Shown: positions 1-7,864 of the stretch, piece after piece | How positions within the stretch are numbered: the stretch's first letter is position 1 | How the letters are laid out: each line of letters starts with the position of its first letter | Source of the DNA: Clostridiales bacterium | GTDB lineage: Bacteria; Bacillota; Clostridia; Christensenellales; UBA1242 | Length of the DNA stretch: 64,000 bases | Assembly: GCA_015055815.1 (NCBI GenBank) | Contig: SVHM01000005.1 | Span: 1-64,000, forward strand | Direction: 5' to 3' | Notes under the pieces: model-generated | What the model saw: only the letters and a program-made list of their open reading frames with translations | Told to the model about the DNA's origin: nothing | The model's database searches: none | Made by a program: the position numbers and the translations under genes

Positions 1-626
1 TTGTCATTATTCGTTGAGGCTAGCTTTTTATTAAGAATTGATATAGATTCCTTGATTCCAGGGTGAGTACCAGGTTGTTCGGGCATAAACGGTACATACA
101 ACCAACCTAATTGTTTGAAGGCCTCATAAACACAGAACTTATGTATTTGCGTAATTTCCTTGTTCGTATTAGGGGTTGTGGAACGTACCGTCATATTAGT
201 GAATATTAACGAGCCATTCCTTTGCAATAAAGCAGGTTGTTCCTTTACGGTACGAGACCACGAAACTCGTCCTTTTGTATCGGTAATATATTCGGGGTCG
301 CTCTCTACATAATATCGACCTGACCTTAAAAAACCTCTAACAATGGTCAAGTATGCGTGTATAGGAAAATCAACCGTTTGCGGGGCTTCAAATTTAGGCG
401 ACTCGATAACACGGTCTTCCTTCATAAAGGCAGATAAAACACCGAAAAGATTATTAATATCTGCCCTTAATTGGTCATCGTCATCAGGTAATTGATATCC
501 TATAGGAAAATAAATCACCGCATCGCCAGAATCGGCTTTTACACCAACGAAAGAATCACCGTCATTATTGGTATTGACGTGGCAACGTTCTCTTAAATTT
601 TTAGATAGAATTTCTGATAAATCCAA
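1..626 (-). CDS. LlaJI-family restriction endonuclease subunit (McrC-position partner), partial at window edge
   Basis: Open minus-strand frame from a TTG start at 626 (AGGAGG RBS 8 nt upstream) running off the left edge: MDLSEILSKNLRERCHVNTNNDGDSFVGVKADSGDAVIYFPIGYQLPDDDDQLRADINNLFGVLSAFMKEDRV... Position directly after a McrB-like GTPase and two m5C MTases matches LlaJI R2. Not in the supplied ORF track. Confidence 0.75.
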   Translation of the reverse strand, partial: MDLSEILSKNLRERCHVNTNNDGDSFVGVKADSGDAVIYFPIGYQLPDDDDQLRADINNLFGVLSAFMKEDRVIESPKFEAPQTVDFPIHAYLTIVRGFLRSGRYYVESDPEYITDTKGRVSWSRTVKEQPALLQRNGSLIFTNMTVRSTTPNTNKEITQIHKFCVYEAFKQLGWLYVPFMPEQPGTHPGIKESISILNKKLASTNND

Positions 627-649
627 GTCAACTACCTCCTATTTTTTCG

Positions 650-3070
650 TTAGTTTCCGTTAAGCAAGTCCCTTATGTGCTGCTTGAAAACTCTAAGTCT
701 ATCCTTGCCTGTGTTGAAGACGAATGTTCTGATTACCTTTTCCAAACAATCCAAATTTTCTGTATCGAAAAGCACTTCAGGATTAAATTTAAATGCATCA
801 TCCCATAAGTACTTTATAACCTTTTCAGGGAACACACGAACCTTGATAATAGCGGCTCTTAATTCCTTTAAGCGTTGTGCCTTATCGCTAGTGATGGTTT
901 TATCCCTCTCCGCGTTAAGAAGGTCGATGTATTCACGATAAAGGTCAGTATATCCTTCAGAGGGAACTGCATTGGCATCGAACTCAAGGTCTGTTTCGTG
1001 AATGAAGTAAACACCCAATCTCTTATCTTCAGCGGAAGCAACTTTTGCCTTGTTTCCAATGATTTGTGCGTTAATAATATCGCAGAACTTGCTCCAAACA
1101 ACACCAGTATCAAGAATTTGAGCATTCGCCAAGGATGCACGGACATTATCAAAGTTGTTTTCTATGAGGCGCATACGCCATCTTCTTTGGAAAGCCGTGT
1201 CCAAAGTGAATACGTTTTGGTCAGAGGTGTTCATTGTGCCGTAAATTGAAAGGTTGGACGGTATGCGTACTTTAGCAGTTTCGTCACCGTATACAATTTT
1301 TGCCACGCTCTTATTAGTTATGCCATATGCACTAGTTCCTGCTTTATAGGTAATTCCACCCTCGGTAAATGATTCATAGGCTCTATCGAGAAGTTGGAAT
1401 ATGTCACCAAAGATTGCAGGGGCATTACCTCTATTGATTTCTTCAATAACAAGCACATACTCTTTTGTAGGGTGCGTATACGCTTCACGCAAAATCGTGG
1501 TAAAAGGACCAGGGGTAAAATCATAAGTTACCATCTTATCCTCGGGGTCAACGATTGGCAAAATTTGTCCTACAAAATCTGCGTTTGTATAGTCGGGGTG
1601 GAATACTACACGTTCTACCTTTGTTGAGGGAGTGCAATATTCGTGTGCGATTGTCCAGCTCTTACCTGAACCCGGCACACCATACAAAAGTACATTTGTA
1701 CCACCCGAAAGCCGAGTGGATTCATCTACACTAGAATCCAATGGATTAGAATCCTCTTGGCTTTCTATTAAGCATCTTTGAAATTGATAGTCATATGTTA
1801 AATCTTGTTTTTTGTCATCCATAATAATTGTCCCCACTATATGTAAATTTGATGGTAAAAGCACTTTATTCGGTTGCAGTACCGCTCTTGCGTTCGCACT
1901 GTTGTTTCTAAGGTAAGTGTAAAATTTCTCGTCTTCAATTGAGTCTTTTGACCACCCATGTCTTACGCTTATCACATCATCCACCCTAGGGAAAAGAGCG
2001 GTGTATTTCGACATTGCAGCAAAGAATGAGTGCTCATTCATACCCTGAATGACAATGTATATATTTTTCTTTTCGTTGTTATATGCATATAAAACGGCTT
2101 TTTCAAATACTTTAGGAGCAAAAGTTGATTCACCGTCTATAATACAAAAATCATTTCCGTCAGAAGAAGTCCAATCAAACCTTACAATTTGTGATTCATC
2201 GCTCACTCTACCAAGAACCGAATTTTCAACCCAGTGGTTAACCGTGTTATAGTTTGTATCTGTATACGTGAATAGCCTAACTGGCGTATAGACTGCATTA
2301 ATTTTTCTTATTTGCTGCTTATGGGCTTCACCCAATAATGCACTCAAACTATAATATGTTTTACCGTCTTCTTCATCCTTTTCGCTTACAAGCAGACCGA
2401 TACTATCATCAGTGAAGATGTCAATAATTTTGCAATCATTAACAATATTTGTAATTTCCCATTCCTCATTTAACTTGGTATAGTCACGATGTCGATTACT
2501 TTTCACATTATCGATAGCCTCTTGAAACGTCTTATAAACGCCTCTATTCAAGCCATACATAACGTGGCATATTTCATCGGCAGTAGCTTTTCCCAACTCG
2601 AGCAGGGTCTTAAATACAACTTTAGGAGGTTCAATGTCGGTGTTGGATTGTTCAGCTCCACTGTTATTTTTACCAAACGAGTCAAAAATAACACTGTCAA
2701 AAATCAAGTCCACAAAATCTTTACGATGCTCGGGAGCTATGCAGTAACGATTTTCAGCTGGAACATCGGCACCATTATCGCAGATATATTCCAACAATAA
2801 TTCACCTCTATGCGTAAGCACAAGATAGCTACTATTATCGGCATACACAACAACATCGGCAAATCCAAAATAACGTACCATTTTGCTTTTATTGTATGCT
2901 GTTCTGTTTTCTTTTCCGTTTTTGACAGCAGGAACACCAACAAATGTCGCCATTTCAGATACGAAATCTTTTCTAGATATTCTTCCATTATGATTGGAAA
3001 TAATCTTCAAGGTATACAAGAAATAGCTAATGTTCATGCTTGACTTGTCAATTGTTAATTTACCTATCAT
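650..3070 (-). CDS. McrB-like AAA+ GTPase subunit of LlaJI-type restriction system
   Basis: Walker A GVPGSGKS, Walker B YVLVIEEINRGNAPAIFGDIFQLLDR, NTSDQN motif (McrB NTxD) and QRRWRM; overlaps upstream MTase by 11 bp. Confidence 0.9.
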   Translation of the reverse strand: MIGKLTIDKSSMNISYFLYTLKIISNHNGRISRKDFVSEMATFVGVPAVKNGKENRTAYNKSKMVRYFGFADVVVYADNSSYLVLTHRGELLLEYICDNGADVPAENRYCIAPEHRKDFVDLIFDSVIFDSFGKNNSGAEQSNTDIEPPKVVFKTLLELGKATADEICHVMYGLNRGVYKTFQEAIDNVKSNRHRDYTKLNEEWEITNIVNDCKIIDIFTDDSIGLLVSEKDEEDGKTYYSLSALLGEAHKQQIRKINAVYTPVRLFTYTDTNYNTVNHWVENSVLGRVSDESQIVRFDWTSSDGNDFCIIDGESTFAPKVFEKAVLYAYNNEKKNIYIVIQGMNEHSFFAAMSKYTALFPRVDDVISVRHGWSKDSIEDEKFYTYLRNNSANARAVLQPNKVLLPSNLHIVGTIIMDDKKQDLTYDYQFQRCLIESQEDSNPLDSSVDESTRLSGGTNVLLYGVPGSGKSWTIAHEYCTPSTKVERVVFHPDYTNADFVGQILPIVDPEDKMVTYDFTPGPFTTILREAYTHPTKEYVLVIEEINRGNAPAIFGDIFQLLDRAYESFTEGGITYKAGTSAYGITNKSVAKIVYGDETAKVRIPSNLSIYGTMNTSDQNVFTLDTAFQRRWRMRLIENNFDNVRASLANAQILDTGVVWSKFCDIINAQIIGNKAKVASAEDKRLGVYFIHETDLEFDANAVPSEGYTDLYREYIDLLNAERDKTITSDKAQRLKELRAAIIKVRVFPEKVIKYLWDDAFKFNPEVLFDTENLDCLEKVIRTFVFNTGKDRLRVFKQHIRDLLNGN

Positions 3071-4232
3071 ATGAACCTCCTACAATCAATGATTCAATAG
3101 CTCTGCGAATCAATAATGGCGGAATGCCTTCACCTATAACTTTTCTTATCAAAACATCATCTGCCCATTCTGGGATGTTCCAATCGGTTGGTAGAGATGA
3201 TAATATGAGCAACTCATAAATAGACAAAGCTCTTGCGTCCGAATAAATACGAGTATGTTCATCTGTGCCTTGAGAAATTAGTCTTCCTGGATGCACAGTG
3301 GAAAATGCTGATATTACACCGCTATTTTGCATAATGGTTGTTGCGGGCTTATTCCAATCCATACGCATATATGTTCTTGGAGCCCCTTTTATTCTTCTGC
3401 CTTTTGTCATCGGATAATAAATATCATTTTTGAATGCTGATGTGCCGGACGGAGTATGCATCATCCACTCGACTTGCTTCCAACTATGAACAGGAGGTAT
3501 ATGCCACTTGGAAATTTTCAGTCCCTCCGCCTTTTTCTTTTCAAAATCAGGAAATCTCCAACGTTCATATTTATCTCTCAAATCGGGGTCAAGAGATGGC
3601 AAATGACCGATGGCATCTTGCAAAGTGATAATTTTTTCATTCTTCACAGGAAATTCCCATGCTACATTTTCACTTTTCTTTGATAGCAAATAGATATAAC
3701 GTTGACGTGATTGCGGAACGCCATAATCCATAGCATTGACAACTCGTGTCTTGTTAAAATTATAATATTCGCCAAGTTCGTTTTCAACATACTGTGGAAT
3801 AAAAACGTAATTATCCATATATAAAATTTGAGTATGTTGCTGCATGGGAACATTCTCAATAATAACAAATCGAGGCTTTAAGCGTTTAATCGCCTCAACA
3901 GCATAGTAAATTAAAAAGTTTCTGGGGTCTAATGGGTCTTTTCGCCCAGCACAAGACATACCTTGGCAAGGAGGAGTAGCTATCACCATTTCAACTCCAG
4001 CATCCTTTGCTGCGCCTATAACGTTTTCAAAAACATTTTCGTCTGTTATGTCGCCTTGAATCATATTTACAGAGGGGTATAAATGATTGTAAAATCTGCA
4101 CCGTTCCTCCAATAATTCGTTTGCAACAACCACATCCACACCTAAATCCTGTAAATAGGTTTCGGATATTCCTACATTAGCAAAAAGCGATAGTGCTTTA
4201 ATTTTTTCTTTAAATTTTATATCATTGCTCAT
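3060..4232 (-). CDS. DNA (cytosine-5-)-methyltransferase (second of tandem pair)
   Basis: ATPPCQGMS motif IV, ENVP motif, VPQSRQRYIYL motif VIII, C-terminal GEGIPPLL. Confidence 0.93.
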   Translation of the reverse strand: MSNDIKFKEKIKALSLFANVGISETYLQDLGVDVVVANELLEERCRFYNHLYPSVNMIQGDITDENVFENVIGAAKDAGVEMVIATPPCQGMSCAGRKDPLDPRNFLIYYAVEAIKRLKPRFVIIENVPMQQHTQILYMDNYVFIPQYVENELGEYYNFNKTRVVNAMDYGVPQSRQRYIYLLSKKSENVAWEFPVKNEKIITLQDAIGHLPSLDPDLRDKYERWRFPDFEKKKAEGLKISKWHIPPVHSWKQVEWMMHTPSGTSAFKNDIYYPMTKGRRIKGAPRTYMRMDWNKPATTIMQNSGVISAFSTVHPGRLISQGTDEHTRIYSDARALSIYELLILSSLPTDWNIPEWADDVLIRKVIGEGIPPLLIRRAIESLIVGGSYDR

Positions 4233-5376
4233 ACACTTGCTCCAAACTTATTAATGCGGCCTCGATTAATCTCGGTGGTACGCCTTCGCCCATAATTTCA
4301 CGAAGTACATTACTACTTGCCCAACTAGGAATATTCCAATCATCAGGAAGCGAGGTAACTCTCATCAACTCAAAGATTGATAACACTCGTGCATCAGACC
4401 AAAGTCTTTCTTCCTCGTTGCTCGAATCAACAATAGGTCTGCCAGGATGTCCATTTTCTTGAGATCCTATGCGGCTAGTATATTTTGTAACTGTATATGC
4501 GGGCTTGTCCCACCATTGTCTTTTATAAGTGTTTTTGTACCCCTTGGATTTGCTACCATCAGCTAAAGTTGGATAGTACTTTTCGTTGTTCCACGCAGTG
4601 CATCCTTCGGCGGTGTGCATCATAGCAATCACGTGTCGATATTTATGTTTGGGAGGATAGTGCCAAGGCGATACGGCCAAACCTCTTGCTTTTTTTTCGT
4701 AGTACTCAGGGAACAGTTCTAATTTAGTAGTTTCGCTCACATCGGTTACATCCGGGTCTAAGGAAGGTAAATCACCGATGGCGTCCCTCATGGTTGTAAC
4801 TTTACCCGTTTTTTCAGGAAATTCCCAGTGAATCCCAGTAGAAACGTGTGCTAGGAGGTAGACGCAACGCTCTCGTGATTGTGCTACGCCATAATGCATT
4901 GCATTAACAACTCTATTCTTGTTAAAGCAATACTCATTACCAAGCTCGCTCTTCAAATACTCGTCTATTAAAATCCACTCACCATCAACCTCTATTTTTG
5001 TATGCAAAATTTCAGGTACATTTTCAATAATTACAAAAAGAGGTTTTACACGTTTAATAGCTTCAACCACTTGGATAATAAGTCGGTTACGAGGGTCATC
5101 CTTTAATTGCTTACCAGCCGTACTCATGCCCTGGCAAGGCGGAGTCGCAATCAAAAAATTACATTTTTCATCTACCGCCGTTGATACAACTTTCTCAAAA
5201 ATAGCTTCGTTGGTGATATCACCCTCAATCATATTGACTTTAGGGTATAAATGCCTATAAATTTCAACTCTTTCGGGTAACAATTCGGATGCAACCCTAA
5301 CAATAATATTGTGTTTTTCAAAATATGTTTCGGCAATTCCTGCACTCGCAAACATCGATAATGCTCTTAATTCCAT
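4222..5376 (-). CDS. DNA (cytosine-5-)-methyltransferase (first of tandem pair)
   Basis: ATPPCQGMSTAG, ENVPEI, VAQSRERCVYL motifs; paralogous to the downstream MTase and overlapping it by 11 bp. Confidence 0.93.
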   Translation of the reverse strand: MELRALSMFASAGIAETYFEKHNIIVRVASELLPERVEIYRHLYPKVNMIEGDITNEAIFEKVVSTAVDEKCNFLIATPPCQGMSTAGKQLKDDPRNRLIIQVVEAIKRVKPLFVIIENVPEILHTKIEVDGEWILIDEYLKSELGNEYCFNKNRVVNAMHYGVAQSRERCVYLLAHVSTGIHWEFPEKTGKVTTMRDAIGDLPSLDPDVTDVSETTKLELFPEYYEKKARGLAVSPWHYPPKHKYRHVIAMMHTAEGCTAWNNEKYYPTLADGSKSKGYKNTYKRQWWDKPAYTVTKYTSRIGSQENGHPGRPIVDSSNEEERLWSDARVLSIFELMRVTSLPDDWNIPSWASSNVLREIMGEGVPPRLIEAALISLEQVYEQ

Positions 5377-5378
5377 AA

Positions 5379-5600
5379 TTACTTTTCCTTTTCCTTGTCG
5401 GTTGTCCCTTCTAACACTAGCAAATCACCAATTTCACAACCGAATAGAGTGCATAACTTTTCAACAGTTTCAAAATCTATTCTAGTTGCCTTATCATGAT
5501 ACAATTGAGTAACGGTGCTTCTTGCTAGACCCGTTTTCAAATGAACATCTTGAATGGAATATCTAGATTTACCCATAAGTGTGGATAATTGGCACTTCAT
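5379..5600 (-). CDS. XRE/Cro-CI family helix-turn-helix regulator of the RM operon
   Basis: 73 aa small HTH: SIQDVHLKTGLARSTVTQLYHDKATRIDFETVEKLCTLFGCEIGDLL; first gene of operon. Confidence 0.88.
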   Translation of the reverse strand: MKCQLSTLMGKSRYSIQDVHLKTGLARSTVTQLYHDKATRIDFETVEKLCTLFGCEIGDLLVLEGTTDKEKEK

Positions 5601-5719: not shown

Positions 5720-5937
5720 TATAAATTGAACGATACCCCATAAATTGAACGAAAAGGGTATAAATTGAACGATTTATATTTTATGGTTAAAAACAAAAAA
5801 GGCTTGCGAGGATGAAAACTATCCCGGCAAGCCTAAATTTTTGCTGTAAAACCTATGAAAAAGGACAAAACACCCCTATTTTTGCAATAAAAAAGCCATA
5901 ATACCGATATTTTTCGTATCAATATTATGGTTTCTTT
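5720..5937. repeat. Left copy of ~217-bp direct repeat (R1)
   Basis: ATAAATTGAACGATACCCCATAAATTGAACGAAAAGGGTATAAATTGAACGATTTATATTTTA...CAATAAAAAAGCCATAATACCGATATTTTTCGTATCAATATTATGGTTTCTTTA; near-identical to 7073-7288. Confidence 0.9.
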
Positions 5938-6049
5938 AAGTGAGTAATCTAAAATTTTGATACCATTTTCATATGGGTGCAAATTTTAGCAGTATAGGTG
6001 CATTTTCCTATAAGGCTTTGCACCCGTTAAGTTCGCGAACTAGAAACTA

Positions 6050-6982
6050 TCAGTCTTCTGAAATTGAGATTTTAATATCTCCCGTATCAGTTGTAATTTC
6101 GCATCTCCCGCCGATAATGGAATTCGGGACATCAATGCGGCCTGTATCGGTTTTTGTGATAAATACTTTGTTGGTAAGCAAACTGCCTTCAACATCACCT
6201 GTACTCGTCATTATAAAAAGCTCTGCTGCATCCGAGCGGTCAAGCGTTACGTCACCCGTGCTTCTTTCAACAGAGATCTTTTCTGTAGAAATAACATTTT
6301 TCAGTGATATATCGCCGCTGCTTCCCGTTGAGGTAAGATTTTTGCATGCAACATCGGTTAGATAAGTCTTTCCGGTTGATACACCGATTGTAATATTTCC
6401 ATCACAAGTCGCAGATGAAACAGTCACATTGCCTGTAGACACAGTAAGATCAAGCGAGCTTGCTGATATACCTTCCGCATAAATGTCACCGGTACTTGCC
6501 GCTATTTTAATATTCTCCGCAGCCGAAGCATAGCACTTAATATTACCTGTACTGAGTGAAATATCAATACTCTTAAATTTAAAAACCTTTGATATCTCGA
6601 TATCACCAGTGCTTTCCTCGATGACAAGCGAAGAATACGCTGCTTCGGGAAGATAAACCGTAATCTTCGGTGAGTCTATATTAACCCCGATATAGTCATA
6701 CCATTTTTTATTGTTAACAACATTAACCGCAAGAGTACCGTCTTGAACTTCAACGGAATGGCTTTTCTTTGCATCCTCATAACAAACCACTCTGCACATT
6801 CCGTCATCAGACAGTACAAAAGCAATATCCGCTGTATCTGTTTTTATAGATATATTGTCGAATTCTTCATTGATTTTGTGGATGTTGGTTTCATAGTCAC
6901 TTAAAGAGCATGCTGTCAATGTTAATAGCCCCATACTAAAAACAATAAGCAGAAGCAATCGTAATAAAGTTGAGTGGTGCAT
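6050..6982 (-). CDS. DUF4097-type beta-strand-repeat lipoprotein
   Basis: Signal peptide with lipobox LTAC; many repeated STGD/TSTGDV strands. Confidence 0.85.
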   Translation of the reverse strand: MHHSTLLRLLLLIVFSMGLLTLTACSLSDYETNIHKINEEFDNISIKTDTADIAFVLSDDGMCRVVCYEDAKKSHSVEVQDGTLAVNVVNNKKWYDYIGVNIDSPKITVYLPEAAYSSLVIEESTGDIEISKVFKFKSIDISLSTGNIKCYASAAENIKIAASTGDIYAEGISASSLDLTVSTGNVTVSSATCDGNITIGVSTGKTYLTDVACKNLTSTGSSGDISLKNVISTEKISVERSTGDVTLDRSDAAELFIMTSTGDVEGSLLTNKVFITKTDTGRIDVPNSIIGGRCEITTDTGDIKISISED

Positions 6983-7072
6983 TGAATTTCTCCTTTGTCA
7001 AATTCTTATTTATCTGTGAGTTTATTATAGCATCAAATCCAACTAAAGTCAAGTCTTTTATTCAGTAAATCA

Positions 7073-7288
7073 ATAATTGAACGATACCCTATAAATTGAA
7101 CGAAAGGGGTATAAAGTGAACGATTTATATTTTACGGGTAAAAACAAAAAAGCTCGCAAGGACGAAAACTCTCCCAGCAAGCCTCTATTTTTTGCTAAAA
7201 AACCTATAAAAAGGTCAAAATCTCCCCATTTTGGCAATAAAAAAGCCATAATACCGATATTTTTTGTATCAATATTATGGTTTCTTTA
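7073..7288. repeat. Right copy of ~217-bp direct repeat (R2), ends at tRNA-Tyr CCA
   Basis: ATAATTGAACGATACCCTATAAATTGAACGAAAGGGGTATAAAGTGAACGATTTATATTTTA... through the TATTATGGTTTCTTTA shared end; contains the tRNA-operon terminator hairpin. Confidence 0.9.
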
Positions 7289-7373
7289 TGGTGGGAAGGG
7301 ATGGATTCGAACCATCGAAGACTGAGTCGACGGATTTACAGTCCGTTGCATTTGGCCGCTCTGCAACCTTCCC
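7289..7373 (-). tRNA. tRNA-Tyr(GTA), encoded CCA
   Basis: GGGAAGGTTGCAGAGCGGCC...ACTGTAAATC...GGTTCGAATCCATCCCTTCCCACCA; class II variable arm. Confidence 0.95.
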
Positions 7374-7380
7374 AAAAAAA

Positions 7381-7455
7381 TGGAGCTGGTGATAGGAATC
7401 GAACCTACAACCTGCTGATTACAAGTCAGCTGCTCTACCGTTGAGCCACACCAGC
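7381..7455 (-). tRNA. tRNA-Thr(TGT)
   Basis: GCTGGTGTGGCTCAACGGTAGAGCAGCTGACTTGTAATCAGC...ATCACCAGCTCCA. Confidence 0.95.
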
Positions 7456-7513
7456 ATACTAAAGTTATTATTATATTTTGTCGGTATATCCATATAATAA
7501 TAACTTAATTATA

Positions 7514-7590
7514 TGGTGCCGCGGGGCGGAATCGAACCACCGACACAAGGATTTTCAGTCCTTTGCTCTACCGACTGAGCTACCGAGGCA
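7514..7590 (-). tRNA. tRNA-Phe(GAA)
   Basis: TGCCTCGGTAGCTCAGTCGGTAGAGCAAAGGACTGAAAATCC...CGCGGCACCA. Confidence 0.95.
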
Positions 7591-7599
7591 TACATATAT

Positions 7600-7676
7600 T
7601 GGCGACCTGGATGGGACTCGAACCCACGACCTCTAGCGTGACAGGCTAGCGTTCTAACCAGCTGAACTACCAGGCC
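7600..7676 (-). tRNA. tRNA-Asp(GTC)
   Basis: GGCCTGGTAGTTCAGCTGG...CCTGTCACGC...CCAGGTCGCCA. Confidence 0.95.
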
Positions 7677-7694
7677 AAATATATAAAAATTAAA

Positions 7695-7771
7695 TGGTGG
7701 GCCTTCAGGGACTTGAACCCCGGACCAACCGGTTATGAGCCGGTTGCTCTAACCAACTGAGCTAAAGGCCC
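7695..7771 (-). tRNA. tRNA with CAT anticodon (Met or Ile2)
   Basis: GGGCCTTTAGCTCAGTTGGTTAGAGCAACCGGCTCATAACCGG...GAAGGCCCACCA; body resembles Firmicutes Ile2(CAT), so Met/Ile identity left open. Confidence 0.9.
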
Positions 7772-7787
7772 ATTATCGAATAAATAA

Positions 7788-7864
7788 TGGTCGGGGTGAA
7801 GAGACTCGAACTCCCGGCCCCTTGATCCCAAATCAAGTGCGCTACCAAACTGCGCTACACCCCG
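7788..7864 (-). tRNA. tRNA-Pro(TGG)
   Basis: CGGGGTGTAGCGCAGTTTGGTAGCGCACTTGATTTGGGATCAAGGGG...CACCCCGACCA. Confidence 0.95.

Follow-up and report, generated by a model that had tools for sequence, protein, structure and literature searches.

Two direct repeats bracket a lipoprotein gene between a tRNA cluster and an RM operon in the window (the whole stretch of 64,000 nucleotides that was analysed), and the locus raises the question of whether they are the two borders of one duplicated cassette or the openings of separate units. R1 (5724-5938) and R2 (7075-7288) lie at a spacing of 1350/1351 and share 194 identities over 217 aligned columns with 5 gap positions (89.4%); the alignment score was 166, and the best of 500 shuffles reached 20.5. 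The sequence-only reading had called them near-identical direct repeats, which was right as to their direction, a bit strong at 89% identity and a few bases off at the edges. As it had also proposed, R2 holds the terminator hairpin of the tRNA operon and stops at the CCA of tRNA-Tyr (7289-7373), its first base, 7288, following directly after the CCA, and R1 sits beside the start of the RM operon, just upstream of the HTH gene that heads it. No copies beyond R1 and R2 were found in the 1.31-Mb genome (G000), and a genome-wide repeat family was ruled out on that count.

The DNA between the DUF4097 stop codon and R1 provides the answer. These approximately 105 bp (5939-6045) were also found behind the GNAT gene of MT836745.1, so the DUF4097 unit spans 7288 to 5939, and the unit after it starts with R1. 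Each of the two repeats serves as the 5' module of its own unit, the units being neighbours in tandem. That these units belong to a tRNA-targeted modular gene-cassette family is the reading we prefer, with a probability of roughly 75%. The earlier idea of a duplication-bounded cassette held for the cassette itself and failed for R1 as its right border, which is instead the 3' module at 5939-6045; recombination between R1 and R2 would, as had been suggested, delete the DUF4097 unit. The parts of the locus are as follows.

7289-7864, minus strand: tRNA cluster Pro-Met-Asp-Phe-Thr-Tyr (ARAGORN, Rfam)
7291-7289, minus strand: insertion point, the CCA end of tRNA-Tyr
7075-7288, minus strand: R2, 5' module of cassette 1, with the left end, two terminator-like hairpins and iterons
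7246-7280, minus strand: left-end hairpin and T run, predicted replacement terminator for the tRNA operon (sequence; homologue folding)
7075-7123, minus strand: three TCGTTCAATTTAT-type iterons around an ATACCC/GGGTAT inverted repeat (sequence; kept in diverged copies)
7024-7052, minus strand: promoter TTGACT-17-TATAAT upstream of the cargo (conserved in 26 loci with different cargo)
6999-7015, minus strand: 5' inverted repeat AGATAAATAAGAATTTG, one mismatch to the consensus CGATAAATAAGAATTTG
6050-6982, minus strand: cargo 1, DUF4097 lipoprotein (Pfam PF13349, 1e-30; lipobox in sequence)
5939-6045, minus strand: 3' module with hairpins, right end GTATCAA (5957-5963)-N16-CT (5940-5939)
5724-5938, minus strand: R1, 5' module of unit 2, fused directly to the 3' module of cassette 1 and without the promoter/leader part
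5379-5600, minus strand: HTH_26 regulator, first gene of the RM operon, cargo of unit 2
4222-5376, minus strand: C5 cytosine methylase 1
3060-4232, minus strand: C5 cytosine methylase 2
650-3070, minus strand: McrB-like AAA_5 restriction subunit
1-626, minus strand: LlaJI-type endonuclease, truncated by the start of contig C7 (PF09563, 1.4e-8; PADLOC REase_II, 3e-65)

Both 5' modules carry a terminator hairpin and TTGAACGA iterons, and a promoter is present in the R2-headed unit only. The left-end hairpin contains TTGATAC (7266-7272) at +17 to +23 from the junction; four different stems were obtained for it in folded homologues. The Pfam match and the lipobox bear out the first assignment of 6050-6982 as a DUF4097 lipoprotein gene, and the protein is LiaG-like at a score below the NCBIfam cut-off (NF049997, 81.8 bits versus 285). 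The inner junction of the window reads CT where the canonical form has CA.

Parts of the 5' module were detected in at least 20 of the 396 sampled genomes of the order, representing 15 of 142 genera (E <= 1e-8), a lower bound since only two candidates were scored per genome; the assemblies are mostly drafts and many matches stop at contig borders. Among the genus members of G000 the repeat module was not found. A covariance model of the 3' module, whose consensus is near CAAATTCCAATTTATCGAACTAAAATGGGTGCAAA.CCTT...ATGCACCCATA...AAAATTTTGCACCCATT..AAAATGGTATCAAAATTTTAGATTACTCACA, located 19 places in 10 of the 396 genomes, and single strands of this module fold better than shuffled sequence. The cargo consists mostly of other genes: GNAT (several times), MazG-like, glyoxalase, TfoX_N, SUKH, chromate transport, lipoproteins, OmdA/YdeI, GDSL hydrolase, CAAX protease, nitroreductase and AAA_18. 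Co-oriented units with one gene or a few stand in tandem, two at each place, in the window, L066 and L065. The candidate origins considered for the repeat also included plasmids, for which there was no match, and a structured RNA family, for which nothing convincing emerged besides tRNAs. Viral contigs scanned for the spaced iterons, the right end, the leader and the 3' inverted repeat gave no matches.

Identical flanks carry different cargo. In G084, from another genus of the same family as G000, the module follows directly after the CCA of tRNA-Leu(TAG) and precedes an ABC-type gene, and in MT836745.1 (L031, a human faecal contig) it follows a 21-bp tRNA-Tyr remnant and precedes a GNAT gene. 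Across 289 nt of the 5' module these two loci are 99.3% identical, after which they continue into the unrelated ABC-type and GNAT genes, behind different tRNAs. GenBank lists MT836745.1 as 'Bacteriophage sp.', but its rimO-, pgsA-, cinA-, recA- and rny-like genes indicate that it is chromosomal and bacterial, which led to the rejection of a phage origin for the repeat.

The same cargo is also found on different flanks. The TfoX_N genes of L072 and L081 match at 91% identity between the -10 region (TATAATAAACTCAC/CGATAAATAAGAATTTG, the slash marking the edge) and CAAATTCCAATTTATCG/A, where the match stops, and the glyoxalase gene of L175 and L085 has the same two edges (86%). These edges are 17-bp inverted repeats, with 15 of 17 matches in L031 (0 of 200,000 shuffles); they are weaker in some loci, and in the DUF4097 unit the 3' copy is lost, being degraded to 2/17 matches. 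Ahead of the cargo, the promoter and leader are common to 26 loci with different cargo, several of which have other flanks and lie farther from a tRNA. L077, L081, L082, L084 and L085 combine the same promoter/leader and inverted-repeat cargo units with other flanks, forming a second platform.

The position of the cassettes relative to tRNA genes is precise. Left ends read CCA/TAAAG behind tRNA-Tyr, tRNA-Leu and tRNA-Pro, or ACTCACA/TAAAG behind another cassette, and diverged left ends (at tRNA-Leu in G378 and tRNA-Tyr in G604) retain the terminator hairpin with TTGATAC at +17 to +23. After the right end, ACTCACA, an intrinsic terminator starts within 10 nt under a strict rule in 11 of 17 junctions, compared with 320 of 12,800 intergenic control positions (2.5%; binomial 2.6e-14); for two of the 17 it is the hairpin of the next cassette. 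MT836745.1 offers an internal control, as the same terminator sequence stands there after an intact tRNA-Tyr and after a cassette right end. Most simply, the cassette would have entered between the tRNA and the tRNA's own terminator. At the far border there is no duplicated tRNA 3' end; right ends consist of ACTCACA and a terminator, with no tRNA fragment at the junction.

Two other arrangements were observed near tRNA genes. A second partial tRNA-Tyr 3' end, for example CGAATCCATCCCTTCC.ACCA, lies approximately 110 to 300 bp after tRNA-Tyr in L120, L124, L031 (8568-8590) and L039 (~2360-2560) and is a trace of another kind of integrating element. A palindrome-rich repeat of approximately 150 to 200 bp, with motifs such as GATATACACTTTCTGCGAAAGTGATT, stands between the tRNA and the cassette promoter in several genera (L066, L071, L073, L079 and L086, downstream of tRNA genes).

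The ends themselves resemble the tRNA gene in their spacing. In the right end 16 nt separate GTATCAA from CA, and in a tRNA gene 16 nt likewise separate G52-A58 (GGTTCRA) from C75A76. Fused, the two ends form the palindromic junction GTATCAA-N16-CA-N16-TTGATAC, with 17 of 24 arm matches in the canonical form (2 of 200,000 shuffles), 16 of 24 in the window (36 of 200,000) and 14 of 24 in L066 (592 of 200,000). This geometry suggests that the recombinase would have an overlap of two bases, CA, and recognise the spacing from T-loop to CCA, and such site reading would explain the tandem stacking.

A full cassette runs from a left end (/N16-TTGATAC within a terminator hairpin) through iterons, promoter and inverted repeat to one or two cargo genes, a second inverted repeat and a hairpin-bearing 3' module ending in GTATCAA-N16-CA/. 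It is placed precisely between the CCA end of a tRNA and the tRNA's own terminator, giving the tRNA a replacement terminator and the cargo a promoter. The right end leaves a site with the T-loop/CCA spacing of a tRNA, at which further cassettes could stack. The sequences themselves show this anatomy, the junctions, the two kinds of mismatch between cargo and flanks, and the distribution; transfer by a recombinase, the class of that enzyme, the order in which units entered and the use of rebuilt ends as targets are inferred. Insertion would probably occur in trans through a site-specific recombinase with a short overlap (~2 bp, CA), any cassette circle having the predicted junction ACTCACATAAAG, and cargo would be exchanged inside the platform as a unit bounded by the 17-bp inverted repeats.

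The RM operon is one cargo among others of this system. Its content is of the LlaJI type (PF00145 twice, PF07728 and PF09563), sharing with the LlaJI RM system (PMC1459862) two C5 methylases, a McrB-like AAA subunit and a LlaJI-type endonuclease, and differing from it in standing behind a tRNA-linked cassette module with an HTH gene first. G604, at tRNA-Tyr, and an IMG/VR phage contig (L042) each have a related RM operon behind a module of this kind; the contig begins with the same 3'-module/R1 junction and continues into a different LlaJI-type operon. Of the RM relatives from other taxa (L006-L011), none is linked to a tRNA gene, one distant tRNA aside. The sequence-only reading had tied the acquisition of the DUF4097 gene to the RM island. 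Distant relatives that have no RM genes nevertheless carry the same modules, with other cargo, which is the observation that this reading had itself named as its refutation; the link is not essential. The LlaJI-type operons are themselves mosaic: window 1-1705 and L042 3564-5268, covering the end of the AAA domain and the endonuclease, are 98.4% identical in DNA, and the methylases and AAA N-terminus have no detectable DNA match, as if specificity modules had been swapped.

The larger setting of the locus bears on the enzyme. In genus members the gene order is rluB-cmk-plsC-[tRNA cluster]-spoIIAA-spoIIAB-sigF; G000 has this order spread over two contigs, with the plsC side on the window (C7) and the spoIIA side on C8. 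Within the first 2.4 kb of C8 lie a serine recombinase, a small HTH gene and a 3' module that ends in ACTCACA ahead of a terminator. Gene order and the content of the C8 start indicate that the starts of C7 and C8 probably flank one island, ordered tRNA-Tyr, DUF4097 cassette, R1-RM, recombinase and 3' module, the continuity from C7 to C8 being drawn from synteny. The six-tRNA cluster (window 7289-7864) lies at the same place but in the opposite orientation in three genus members (L119, L120 and L121), so that tRNA-Tyr faces the spoIIA side in the window and the plsC side in those three. In G604 a diverged left end and a related RM operon stand at the same tRNA-Tyr gene with phage-type genes behind, and in L042/L150 the junction is followed by RM and then by phage replication, terminase and tail genes. 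Such genes make a phage-like nature of the large units probable, and the small cassettes may depend on the recombinase of these units for their movement.

Which enzyme would move the cassettes is best addressed by the supposition that a large serine recombinase of phage-like elements with the same ends mobilises them, the small cassettes being non-autonomous riders, and we regard this as possible at somewhat less than even odds. A 2-bp overlap and a dyad of about 48 bp are typical of serine-integrase sites. The junction here has that overlap within a dyad of about 48 to 50 bp, the arrangement expected of large serine recombinase elements, which is consistent with this class rather than proof of it. 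Multi-target serine integrases with dinucleotide cores are known (PMC10083194). A serine recombinase gene lies just inside the C8 right end, others lie 60-68 kb beyond the tRNA-Tyr left end with RM in G604, and the passage of L042/L150 through RM into phage genes fits as well; no such gene was found inside the small cassettes. Against this, PF07508 had no match in 7 of the 12 cassette genomes that are at least 90% complete, and the island that would place the C8 gene beside the cassettes comes from synteny, not assembly. A locus in G588 (C1; L183 4800-7837) has a weak 3'-module match (48 bits) by a HEPN_Apea gene and a 535-aa serine recombinase, and is a possible autonomous relative; a left end was searched for there and not found.

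None of the recombinase classes searched could be linked to the cassettes. A XerS-like protein, with approximately 49-58% identity between genera, is the one recombinase that the genomes have in general, and this generality speaks for a resident tyrosine recombinase as the mover. We consider that unlikely, because genus members in which no cassette was found have the XerS-like protein too, G410 has no PF00589 match, and the two cassette ends share only about 2 bp; tyrosine recombinases usually need 6-8 bp shared between sites. Equally improbable is a scheme with no dedicated recombinase, in which imported DNA recombines homologously at the 5' and 3' modules: at ~100-300 bp these are conserved enough for exchange between cassette-bearing loci, but first entry behind different tRNAs at the same exact CCA junction would stay unexplained, as would cargo edges at 17-bp repeats with unlike flanks. 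Least credible by a wide margin is a local duplication after tRNA-Tyr, with the DUF4097 gene gained between the copies along with the RM island, since the two direct copies at this one place in the genome would suit it but R1 is closer to the G084 copy (92%) than to R2 (89%; G084 versus R2, 88%), copies of the module follow other tRNAs and precede other cargo, and the DUF4097 unit is ended by a separate 3' module.

The tRNA-linked cassette family was then compared with known systems. Like integron cassettes (attI/attC, IntI), its units are co-oriented, single-gene and stacked in tandem, have a hairpin-rich 3' element after the stop codon, and carry mixed small cargo such as GNAT, glyoxalase and MazG-like genes. 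Unlike them, each has its own promoter and terminator and uses tRNA 3' ends as targets, without attC core motifs: no pair of RYYYAAC and GTTRRRY cores was found on either strand of ten 3' modules. The best of eight tyrosine recombinases, taken from among the PF00589 matches of seven cassette genomes, scored 73.7 bits against the integron integrase model TIGR02249, versus a cut-off of 265. A classical integron was rejected on these two results, within the modules and proteins scanned; the family follows an integron-like logic and is not an integron by these markers. With tRNA-integrated islands and phage satellites, which use tyrosine integrases, the cassettes share insertion at the tRNA 3' end with the tRNA left intact, but they have no duplicated tRNA 3' end at the far side, use many tRNA species, measure approximately 0.5-1.4 kb and carry no integrase. 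Large serine recombinase elements and SCC-like islands have the 2-bp overlap, palindromic junction, RM cargo and tandem units in common with them, and differ in that the cassettes contain no enzyme and would target the geometry of tRNA genes in general rather than a single gene. IS200/IS605-type elements and their non-autonomous derivatives also have subterminal hairpins, no outer terminal inverted repeat and insertion after a short motif; this logic fits the anatomy, but was rejected because, of 13 cassette-bearing genomes or records, only one had the Y1 HUH transposase (PF01797). The literature searched, which took in few subscription journals, contained no account of cassettes of this kind.

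The cassette family may thus represent an undescribed integron-like system, a suggestion that we make tentatively and hold at rather less than an even chance. A recombinase acting in trans would read the universal T-loop-to-CCA geometry of tRNAs, so that any CCA-encoding tRNA gene would be a landing site for single-gene cassettes with their own promoter and terminator, each rebuilding a tRNA-like site for the next. If this is true, spore-former-related gut-type bacteria with small genomes would own a counterpart of integrons, through which single accessory genes, namely acetyltransferases, resistance-like proteins and immunity-like and defence genes, would be gained, swapped and stacked at tRNA genes while the tRNA keeps a terminator. 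It would also predict insertion sites, help to locate cargo in metagenomes, and imply a recombinase able to recognise tRNA genes of any kind.
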